DNA of 64,000 nt, from contig NZ_CAKZNK010000096.1 of assembly GCF_937129525.1 (NCBI RefSeq), positions 1 to 64,000 of the forward strand, in the 5' to 3' direction. This DNA comes from an uncultured Chloroflexus sp. (GTDB lineage Bacteria > Chloroflexota > Chloroflexia > Chloroflexales > Chloroflexaceae). Below the pieces are notes generated by a model that was given only the letters and a program-made list of their open reading frames with translations, did no database searches and was not told the DNA's origin. The stretch's first letter is position 1, and every line of letters starts with the position of its first letter. The position numbers and the translations under genes are program-made. Below are positions 8,166 through 46,955 of this stretch, piece by piece.

Positions 8166-8813
8166 ATGAGCAACGAAACCACCACCCGCCCCCAAAAGCG
8201 TTACGCGCGCATTGCCCCCCTCTACAAGGCAATGATCTGGACATCGTTCATCATGAATGCCGTGCTGCTGGTTGTGTTAGGAATTGTGATCGGTATTCTG
8301 GTTATGAACCAGCGTCAGGTGTCCCAGCTTGCTGAAAGCCTGCCGGTCTTTGCCGCCAACAATCTGGCTGAGCTGCAAGATGTGGTTGATCACCTCGAAT
8401 CGGCTACGATTGTCTACACCGTACCGCTGAGCACACGCCTGCCAATTGAACTGGATGTTCCGATCAATGGCGCCACGATTATGACTGAACGAAACGTGGT
8501 GAAGCTCACCGAACCGGTGTCGTTGCAAGCGCCCGCGCAGATCGCGTTTCCCGGCGGTGGTGGGAATCTCAATGCCAGTGTCGCTATTGTCTTGCCTGCT
8601 GGCCTTGAATTACCGGTCGATCTGAACATGAACGTAAAACTGGTCACTTCGATTCCGGTAGAGCTTGACGTGCCGGTCAATATCCCTCTGGCCGAAACCG
8701 AGTTAGGGCCACAATTTACCCGCCTCGGCGCGATTGTAGACCGGCTGGTTGCGCCAGTTGCGCCGCTGTTGCCAATGCCAGCGACGCCGCCGGATAGCAG
8801 CCAGCCGCAATAA
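8166..8813 (+). CDS. Single-span membrane protein of unknown function
   Basis: 215 residues with a basic N-terminus, one transmembrane helix at about residues 22-46 (FIMNAVLLVVLGIVIGILVM), and an extracytoplasmic domain of beta-strand character rich in Val, Pro, Thr and repeated 'P[IV]ELDVP' motifs (LPIELDVPINGA, IPVELDVPVNIP). The tail is Pro/Ser-rich. The repeated strand motif suggests a beta-sandwich or water-stress-like fold, but no family was recognised. A good Shine-Dalgarno sequence supports the start. Probably monocistronic, since the next gene is convergent. Confidence 0.75.
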   Translation: MSNETTTRPQKRYARIAPLYKAMIWTSFIMNAVLLVVLGIVIGILVMNQRQVSQLAESLPVFAANNLAELQDVVDHLESATIVYTVPLSTRLPIELDVPINGATIMTERNVVKLTEPVSLQAPAQIAFPGGGGNLNASVAIVLPAGLELPVDLNMNVKLVTSIPVELDVPVNIPLAETELGPQFTRLGAIVDRLVAPVAPLLPMPATPPDSSQPQ

Positions 8814-8867
8814 CCTCAATTGCTTCTACCGTTGGTAAGCGACTGCTGTGTCTTAAGGGTTTTATCT

Positions 8868-9267
8868 TGAATGCGCCCGCGAGTGACCTGAGTAAAACCG
8901 GTTACTCGCAGCTTGTTGCTGGCAGATTGCGCAGAGGTGGTAGCGCTGAATGCGCTGTTTACCTGCCCTCGGAGTCGAGTTGATCGGGGCTGAAACCGTA
9001 GGGTAAGCGTTCCGCTGGGGTGGTGAAGCGGCGTTCACTGCTATCGGCGTTGAGCAGAATGATCTGCTGAATGCGACCGCGAGTGACCTGAGTAAAACCG
9101 GTCACTCGCAGCTTGTTGCTGACAGATTGCGCAGAGGTGGTAGGGCTGAACGCCCTGCTCACCTTCCCTGTGCCTCAAGTTGATCGGGGCCGAAACCGTA
9201 GGGTAAGAGTTCTGCCGGAGTGGTGAAGCGGCGTTCACTGCCATCAGCGTTAAGCAGAATGATCTGC
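8868..9267. repeat. 200-bp tandem direct duplication covering the 3' end of cdd
   Basis: Two copies, 8868-9067 and 9068-9267, are in direct tandem with an exact 200-base offset and no gaps; by eye about 22 positions differ (about 89% identity). The cdd-proximal copy holds the last 35 codons of cdd plus about 90 bases of downstream DNA. The distal copy is a decaying remnant, out of frame with cdd because 200 is not a multiple of three. Two hairpins are kept in both copies: GCGAGTGACC/GGTCACTCGC (9079-9109 and 200 bases lower) and a 5-bp stem just after the stop (9142-9156 and 8942-8956). Confidence 0.9.
8959..9067 (-). pseudogene. Remnant of the C-terminus of cytidine deaminase
   Basis: Minus-strand translation gives QIILLNADSSERRFTTPAER followed by LPYGFSPDQLDSEGR and a stop, a degraded copy of the cdd C-terminus (QIILLNADGSERRFTTPAEL then LPYGFGPDQLEAQGR). 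It has no start codon of its own and none of the catalytic motifs, so it should not encode an enzyme. It arose from the tandem duplication that surrounds it. Confidence 0.85.
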
Positions 9268-9575
9268 GCGCGCGGCGCCAGTTCAAAAATGACTTGCCGA
9301 CATGCGCCGCATGGACTGGCTACAGTCGGAGTTGGCGTCACAATGGCCAGAGCCGTCACCGGGCCGGCGGCAGCCATATGAGCGCAGAAGAGCGCCACTC
9401 GCTCGGCGCAAATTGTCAATGGATACGAGGCATTTTCGATGTTGGCGCCGCTAAAGATGTGGCCATCGGCAACCATGGCTGCTGCGCCGACTGCAAAGCG
9501 TGAGTAGGGCGCATATGCGCGCCGTTGGGCTGCCAGCGCGGCATTGATAAGCTGGTCAAGAGCTACTGGATCCAT
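9159..9575 (-). CDS. cdd: Cytidine deaminase
   Basis: 138 residues, the usual length of the homotetrameric class. The zinc-site motifs are complete: CAE (in TICAERVALF) with the catalytic glutamate and first zinc cysteine, and PCGACRQ with the other two cysteines. The FSGANIENASYP substrate-binding segment is present. It converts cytidine and deoxycytidine to uridine and deoxyuridine in pyrimidine salvage. The start overlaps the end of the upstream CNNM/CorC gene by 20 bases, so the two are translationally linked. Its 3' end is tandemly duplicated just downstream. Confidence 0.95.
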   Translation of the reverse strand: MDPVALDQLINAALAAQRRAYAPYSRFAVGAAAMVADGHIFSGANIENASYPLTICAERVALFCAHMAAAGPVTALAIVTPTPTVASPCGACRQVIFELAPRAQIILLNADGSERRFTTPAELLPYGFGPDQLEAQGR

Positions 9576-10908
9576 GCGCTTCCTGGGTGATCGGCAACAC
9601 AGGTCTTGCAGTTTCCGCCGGTTGCGCCGCTTCCGCTTCCTCCGGTGGCTGGCGAACGATGCGCAGCCGTTCGGCGCGAATACCTTTCAATGATAGCACA
9701 GTAATCGTTACGTCACCACAGGTCACTTCATCACCGACGCGCGGAATGCGACCCAACTGCTCGTAGACCAGGCCGCCAATGCGGTCGGCGGTGGTTTCCG
9801 GAAATTCCATTTCAAGCAGCTCGGCCACATCGTCAATAGGAACGCGGGCATCAACGATCAACTCTCCTGGCCCGACCTCGACGATTGCCGGCTCTTCGGT
9901 GTCGTACTCATCACGGATTTCGCCAACGATCTGCTCGATCAGGTCTTCAAGCGTGACGATTCCCGCTGTGCCGCCATACTCATCGACGACAATTGCCATA
10001 TGAACGCGGCGCCGTTGCAAATCTTCTAGCAGCGCCGATACCTTCATCGTCACCGGCACAAAATAGGCCGGGCGCAACAGAACGCGGAGCGGCGTATCGC
10101 GTCGTCCGTCGCGTAAGACCGGGATCAGATCTTTGACATACAGAATGCCGATCACGTTATCGATCGTCTCTTCGTAGACCGGAATACGTGAGTGACCGCG
10201 GGTGATGGCCAGATCAAGCGCGCGATCGAGTGAGCTGTTCACTTCGAGCGCAGCCACGTCTACCCGCGGGATCATAATCTCGCGCACCAGTGTATCGCCA
10301 AAATCCATCACCCCCTCGATCATCTCCCGCTCTTCGTGCTCAATCCAGCCGGCTTCTTCACCGGCGCTCATCATCAGGCGCAATTCTTCTTCGGTGACGA
10401 GCGGCGCAGGGGGAGCTGGCTTTCCACTCAGCAGCGTGAAGATCGGGCGAGTGATCGCATTGATAATTGCCATCAAAGGCCACAGGATTGTCGCCACAAT
10501 CACGAGCGGGCGCGCGAGTATGAGTACTGTGGCTTCTGGGTTGCGGTAGGCCAGCGCCTTGGCGATCACTTCACTCAACAGCAGGATTGCGAATAACAGT
10601 GTTGCGAGGCCGATAAACAGTGCATTGAAGCCATGCGGCGCAGTAAGCTGAATTGTCAGTGCCGTGACTGTAATGGTAAGCGTGGCATTCAAAAAGATGA
10701 TGGCTGACTTGATCCGGTACGGCTCGTCGAAAAAGTGCGCAGTGAAACGGCGCGTGCCAAGGCCAGCCGAGCCGAGCAGGGCGCTCAGACGCGGACGGCT
10801 GATGGTCATCAAGACCGTATCGGCAGCCGAGGTAATACCGAGAAAGAAGAGGCAGAGGCCAATGCCGATCACTAGCGAACTAGGGCCGGGGTCTTCCAAG
10901 CGAATCAT
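9556..10908 (-). CDS. CNNM/CorC-type transporter-associated protein (DUF21 + CBS pair + CorC_HlyC)
   Basis: 450 residues. The N-terminal 170 residues are hydrophobic (DUF21/CNNM membrane domain, spans at about 10-32, 65-95 and 100-150). Two CBS repeats follow (about 205-330, with PRVDVAALEVNSSLDRALDL, VIGILYVKDLIPVL and VDEYGGTAGIVTLEDLIEQI). The last 90 residues form a CorC_HlyC domain. Family members take part in Mg2+ or other cation efflux at the membrane; the exact ion is not known here. The AGGAGG sits directly against the ATG at 10908, so a TTG three codons further in (about 10899) is an equally plausible start. Overlaps cdd downstream. Confidence 0.88.
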   Translation of the reverse strand: MIRLEDPGPSSLVIGIGLCLFFLGITSAADTVLMTISRPRLSALLGSAGLGTRRFTAHFFDEPYRIKSAIIFLNATLTITVTALTIQLTAPHGFNALFIGLATLLFAILLLSEVIAKALAYRNPEATVLILARPLVIVATILWPLMAIINAITRPIFTLLSGKPAPPAPLVTEEELRLMMSAGEEAGWIEHEEREMIEGVMDFGDTLVREIMIPRVDVAALEVNSSLDRALDLAITRGHSRIPVYEETIDNVIGILYVKDLIPVLRDGRRDTPLRVLLRPAYFVPVTMKVSALLEDLQRRRVHMAIVVDEYGGTAGIVTLEDLIEQIVGEIRDEYDTEEPAIVEVGPGELIVDARVPIDDVAELLEMEFPETTADRIGGLVYEQLGRIPRVGDEVTCGDVTITVLSLKGIRAERLRIVRQPPEEAEAAQPAETARPVLPITQEAHGSSSS

Positions 10909-37651: not shown

Positions 37652-37685
37652 AAAAAATCTGGGGCGACTCTTGCGTCGCCCCAGA
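37652..37685 (-). terminator. Strong terminator after the YtxH-like gene
   Basis: A perfect 11-bp stem, TCTGGGGCGAC (37658-37668) with GTCGCCCCAGA (37675-37685), 6-base loop. On the minus strand it is followed by six Ts. Confidence 0.9.
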
Positions 37686-37708
37686 TCAGGACAATAACAG
37701 CCCCGGCC

Positions 37709-46919: not shown

Positions 46920-46955
46920 GCAGGCGTTATCGATCCGGTAACGCCTGCTCTGTTT
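46920..46955 (+). terminator. Terminator after the small membrane protein gene
   Basis: GCAGGCGTTA (46920-46929) pairs perfectly with TAACGCCTGC (46939-46948), 9-base loop, followed by TCTGTTT. Confidence 0.8.

Follow-up and report, generated by a model that had tools for sequence, protein, structure and literature searches.

Introduction

Partial tandem duplication is an ordinary fate of genes, and the spare end that it leaves behind decays. The locus described here, behind the cytidine deaminase gene (cdd) of an uncultured Chloroflexus sp., resembles such duplications in its head-to-tail copy and in a spare part that lacks the front of the gene; no difference from them is evident. Two further systems resemble the hairpins that the duplicate contains. 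The intrinsic terminators of Bacillus cereus show compensatory switches, and the bidirectional ones are more strongly conserved, according to the sections of Safina et al. (2017, PMC5381666) considered here. As far as those sections describe them, these terminators share with the present locus a stem-loop behind a gene end, an arrangement of convergent genes and Watson-Crick pair switches. However, 927 terminator alignments across strains were available there, whereas here there is one copy pair in one genome, without a T-run. RNA hairpins can also be maintained by template switching, as set out in the part of Monttinen and Loytynoja (2022, PMC8794818) used here. That mechanism could produce a paired double change in a stem, as observed at this locus; unlike the hairpins treated in that part, the two copies here show no footprint beyond chance. 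Compensatory switches in terminators are already known from the same sections of PMC5381666, and the duplication here is an ordinary event. Our literature search found nothing on transcription termination with hairpins in Chloroflexus.

Results

A contig of 85,699 bases, part of a genome of 4.48 Mb in 157 contigs, contains the window (the whole stretch of DNA analysed, 64,000 nucleotides). The cdd gene (9159..9575, minus strand) encodes a cytidine deaminase of 138 aa that matches TIGR01354 (cyt_deam_tetra) at E 3e-39, above the family cut-off, and Pfam PF00383; the cdd of Chloroflexus islandicus is 86% identical to it. The convergent neighbour (8166..8813, plus strand) encodes a predicted protein of 215 aa with no Pfam or NCBIfam match at E 0.001. 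The gap between the two genes is 345 nt long and holds the duplicate. As the initial annotation had reported, about 200 bp at the 3' end of cdd are tandemly duplicated with some 22 differences, and this description was confirmed. The unit takes in 109 nt of cdd (9267-9159, minus strand), which comprise one base, 35 codons and the stop, together with the 91 nt downstream (9158-9068). The proximal copy (9068..9267, minus strand) thus begins within the gene, its first part being the final 109 nt of cdd (9159-9267). The distal copy (8868..9067, minus strand) carries a 35-codon remnant of the cdd tail with an in-frame TAA at 8959-8961. The two copies are arranged head to tail at a spacing of exactly 200, align without gaps and are 89% identical, the 22 differences comprising 13 transitions and 9 transversions. 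The duplication certainly exceeds chance. No clean microhomology was seen by eye in the printed ends of the duplication; AGAT is present at both ends, two bases out of register. A 421-base query matched a single locus in its own genome, and when E values up to 1 were admitted, only the two tandem copies and two short chance-level matches appeared.

None of the seven other genomes of the genus that were searched shows a second copy, and each gave one cdd match. When the unit was used in a DNA search, the coding tail alone matched in five of these relatives, and the other two gave no match at E 0.001. At E up to 1, the extra matches in all eight genus genomes were short and at chance level, and no similar non-coding stretch was found in the seven relatives, whose sequence downstream of cdd could not be aligned to that of the window at either threshold (E 0.001; E up to 1). 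The genomes searched included no second strain of the same species. Six loci from outside the genus (G029, G012, G018, G031, G021 and G019) were kept out of all counts. The 3' end of the convergent neighbour could be read by eye downstream of cdd in five of the seven relatives (G001, G002, G005, G006 and G007). In G004 (locus L008) and G003 (locus L010), it was not seen by eye within 300 bases downstream of cdd, and the gap between the two genes seems to be disrupted or rearranged there. The synonymous divergence (dS) between the two tails is about 0.42, a rough value from 35 codons, compared with 1.5 to 2.6 for this cdd against five relatives; a sixth, G003, was not computable, and G002 was left out since the start of its contig lies within the gene. 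The duplication therefore took place after those splits. We consider it probable that this is an ordinary lineage-specific duplication, in which the gene end and its terminator-like hairpins were copied as passengers.

Because 200 is not a multiple of three, the distal tail lies in a frame other than that of cdd, and cdd terminates before it. Over the first 30 codons, the proximal and distal tails differ by six synonymous and three non-synonymous changes. In the distal copy, codon 20 has changed from Leu to Arg and codon 26 from Gly to Ser, both at sites where all seven relatives share the proximal residue; the third non-synonymous change, at codon 9, is at a site that varies across the relatives. 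The majority of relatives (4/7 and 6/7, respectively) agree with the distal copy at the synonymous sites 16 and 22. The initial annotation regarded the distal protein tail as decaying. This is correct in so far as the tail, judged by its sequence, shows relaxed constraint at two otherwise invariant residues, Leu20 and Gly26. However, all 35 codons and the in-frame stop are still present, and the dN/dS between the tails, about 0.19 (0.079 over 0.42), is low for a freely drifting copy and counts against free decay. A functional distal protein was rejected as an explanation, given the changes at invariant residues and no family match at E 0.001. An open frame of 67 codons (8959..9162, minus strand) runs from a GTG that overlaps the stop of cdd (GTGA) to the in-frame TAA of the distal tail and has no family match. 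It is probably a by-product of the duplication, and it could be a candidate for translation by coupling with cdd.

The differences are unevenly spread along the unit. There are 8 in the first 90 positions, 11 in the 34 positions around the stop and hairpin 1 (positions 91-124) and 3 in the remaining 76 (125-200). The P value for clustering was 0.005 for a span of 34 nt, which was picked after inspection, 0.017 for 20 nt and 0.13 for 10 nt. The comparison of 3/75 differences at positions 126-200 with the rest gave P 0.018, with the border again picked afterwards. The pre-set comparison of coding (15/109) with non-coding (7/91) positions gave P 0.26, and a one-breakpoint test for mosaic divergence was not significant (P 0.14). 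Apart from the three distal non-synonymous ones, the coding differences are either silent or confined to the C-terminal tail and stop, which vary across the seven relatives too. Two orthologous alleles would be expected to give this pattern, and selection on RNA therefore has a serious, if unproven, rival in recombination with a diverged allele or in homogenisation of the back part. The well-kept linkers fit a duplicate that is mosaic or partly homogenised at least as well as they fit structure selection, and the uneven divergence suggests, though it does not prove, that a cdd end was overwritten or the back part homogenised.

In the fuller form of this alternative, one copy is the allele of a diverged strain, acquired by recombination or introduced by an assembly join of two strains, and many of the differences are those between orthologues. 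The silent or tolerated coding differences, the dN/dS of the tails and the contrast between positions 91-124 and 125-200 all agree with it. However, the distal Arg and Ser stand at sites invariant in the seven relatives and would be unlikely in the working cdd of another strain, the breakpoint test gave no significant signal, and the estimated contamination of the assembly is 0.22. We regard this origin as doubtful, and a duplication within the lineage as the better account of the two copies.

Each copy of the 91-nt part contains two hairpins. Hairpin 1 reads AGGGC-GTTCA-GCCCT on the cdd strand in the proximal copy (9142..9156, minus strand) and AGCGC-ATTCA-GCGCT in the distal copy (8942..8956, minus strand). 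All five pairs form in both through a double change from G-C to C-G, so that the claim of a 5-bp stem past the stop that stays paired was borne out. Hairpin 2 is a stable stem-loop that starts about 50 nt past the cdd stop. Its proximal form (9079..9109) has a perfect 10-bp stem and an 11-nt loop, without a T-run on either side, and folds beyond chance on both strands (z -5.8 and -6.5) at -19.7 kcal/mol on the cdd strand and -18.8 on the plus strand. In the distal form (8879..8909), a G-C pair has become G-U on the plus strand, where 10/10 pairs remain and the energy is -16.6 kcal/mol, whereas on the cdd strand there is an A.C mismatch, with 9/10 pairs left and an energy of -13.3 kcal/mol; the mismatch costs about 6 kcal/mol in cdd's RNA. 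The claim that this 10-bp hairpin keeps pairing through a G-U/G-C exchange accordingly holds on the plus strand and fails in the RNA of cdd itself. As full pairing is confined to the plus strand, the example is limited to read-through from the convergent gene or to transcripts antisense to cdd. The 91-nt part as a whole also folds less distinctly in the distal than in the proximal copy, both on the cdd strand (z -1.95 vs -4.22) and on the plus strand (z -1.83 vs -2.65). In the minimum-energy fold of the distal copy on the plus strand, hairpin 1 is absent and other pairing takes its place.

Known element classes were compared with this structure. No T-run directly follows the stem of hairpin 2, the next ten bases being AGCTTGTTGC on the plus and GGTCGCATTC on the minus strand, and the missing T-run rules out a canonical intrinsic (Rho-independent) terminator. 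Hairpin 2 was not listed by the terminator scan, which covers loops of 3-8 only, compared with 11 nt here. An Rfam family was rejected since the single match in 8500-9700 reached 19.5 bits (E 0.26), where the family's gathering score is 176. A dispersed or REP-like repeat was rejected as well: the 27-nt core occurs at 0-1 mismatch only in the two tandem copies, and at up to 3 mismatches the totals (22 and 20) show no excess over the reversed-pattern control (23 and 31).

Strong hairpins are present behind cdd in the relatives G007 (z -4.8) and G005 (z -4.4), where the sequence differs from that of the window. The fold is weaker in G002 (z -2.0), and the values for G006, G003 and G001 are -0.6, +0.3 and +1.3, respectively; G004 was left out of the folding. 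Since G001, G003, G006 and G002 have no strong hairpin, the element is not conserved across the genus. Between the hairpins of G007 and G005, there is a G-C/C-G switch in the pair that adjoins their shared 8-bp arm, and the next pair outward is G-C in G005 and an unpaired G.G in G007. Such switches therefore arise in the cdd gap without a duplication, and alongside changes that leave bases unpaired.

Hairpins are also found elsewhere in the window. Perfect stems of at least 9 bp with loops of 3-12 number 13, compared with 2, 4 and 2 in three shuffles; seven of the 13 lie inside reading frames as called by a simple length rule, and two lie in convergent gaps. Four of the ten convergent gaps, taken with 20 nt flanks, reach a folding z of -2.8 or below on one or both strands, and the cdd gap is the strongest of them. 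A perfect 10-bp hairpin at 46920-46948 fills most of a 44-nt gap between convergent frames, with the T-rich TCTGTTTCTA on its plus side, and is a candidate for another bidirectional 3'-end element. Between two minus-strand frames, a perfect 12-bp hairpin at 37657-37686 is followed on the minus strand by TTTTTGCAAA and has a more canonical terminator shape.

The initial annotation proposed that structure, and not protein, is what is maintained in the duplicate. If selection acted on RNA or DNA structure in both copies, the double change in hairpin 1 would be a compensatory one that preserves it. The double change is real, and the G-C/C-G switch in the two relatives is a further instance. All 15 stem pairs form on the plus strand in both copies; this outcome arose in 7.2%, 13.8% and 2.5% of simulations with 22 substitutions over the unit, 7 in the 91 non-coding nt and 3 in stem sites, respectively. 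These simulations took the proximal copy as their starting sequence and gave transitions a weight of 2, and their percentages are unadjusted for the hairpins having been chosen after they were seen. Under the same three schemes, at least one compensatory pair appeared in 6.4%, 2.9% and 3.9%, and at least 14 of the 15 pairs survived on the cdd strand in 29%, 47% and 20%. In contrast to the duplication itself, the pattern of pairing does not clearly exceed chance. The non-coding part is also better kept than synonymous sites (7/91 vs 8 of about 25, Fisher P 0.004), above all its last 75 nt with 3 differences (P 0.0006).

However, the stems are not depleted of substitutions. Changes were found at 3/30 stem sites compared with 4/61 other non-coding sites (P 0.68) and 19/170 of all non-stem sites (P 1.0). 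Two stem pairs were hit: in one the change is compensated, and the other no longer pairs in the RNA of cdd. Within the last 75 nt, the unpaired positions, with 2/54 changed, are as well kept as the stems, a pattern that selection on pairing alone would not produce. The less distinct folding of the distal copy, including the loss of hairpin 1 from its plus-strand minimum-energy fold, also speaks against a maintained structure, and the shuffle controls (249/500 and 220/500 reached the observed value) are uninformative, being based on two sequences. With a covariation sample of two sequences and one double change, selection and chance are inseparable. The proposal therefore holds in part: the distal tail is relaxed at two residues and the 91 nt have diverged less than synonymous sites, while the stems change like other sites and the unpaired positions are kept equally. 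The non-coding 91 nt may be under some constraint, the evidence for a maintained structure is weak, and selection on the structure of both copies is an unlikely explanation.

A mutational origin of the double change was also considered, in which one substitution was followed by template-switch repair of the quasi-palindrome, with one arm serving as template for the other. For RNA stems, this mechanism is described in the part of PMC8794818 used here, and the clustering of 11 differences within the 34 nt that surround the stop and hairpin 1 is in keeping with it. However, in a direct search for reverse-complement copying across at least two differences, no match appeared when the distal copy was taken as child and one of 8 nt when the proximal copy was, and 34/300 random simulations also matched. 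A template-switch footprint was therefore rejected for the difference cluster, none being present beyond chance. Template switching is here indistinguishable from two point mutations, and we consider it still more improbable than structure selection. The switch in hairpin 1 probably reflects ordinary stem turnover or chance, and it is no proof that the duplicate is maintained by selection.

Discussion

Our preferred explanation remains a lineage-specific duplication with passenger hairpins. A 200-bp stretch, made up of the last 35 codons and stop of cdd and 91 bp with two hairpins, would have been duplicated head to tail in one Chloroflexus lineage. The hairpins, as 3'-end elements of the convergent gene pair, would be a bidirectional terminator or a stabiliser of transcript ends; judging from their position and stability, they most likely act at the 3' ends of both genes. 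They would have been carried along passively with the tail of cdd. The distal protein tail would then drift because cdd stops before it. At a later time, the cdd end of one copy may have been overwritten by a diverged allele, or the back part may have been homogenised.

Two cautions follow for the reading of duplicated hairpins. In a few per cent of cases, chance should be enough to yield one paired change between two copies. In addition, whether a stem change preserves pairing can depend on the strand that is read.

It is conceivable, though very improbable, that the two copies are specialising by strand, so that each convergent gene would have its own 3' hairpin. This candidate reading is based on hairpin 2: the copy on the cdd side pairs perfectly on both strands, while the copy on the side of the plus-strand gene has changed harmlessly on the plus strand (G-U) and damagingly in cdd's RNA (A.C). 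If such strand-specific specialisation were true, the locus would be a natural experiment in which a shared bidirectional terminator is splitting in two.
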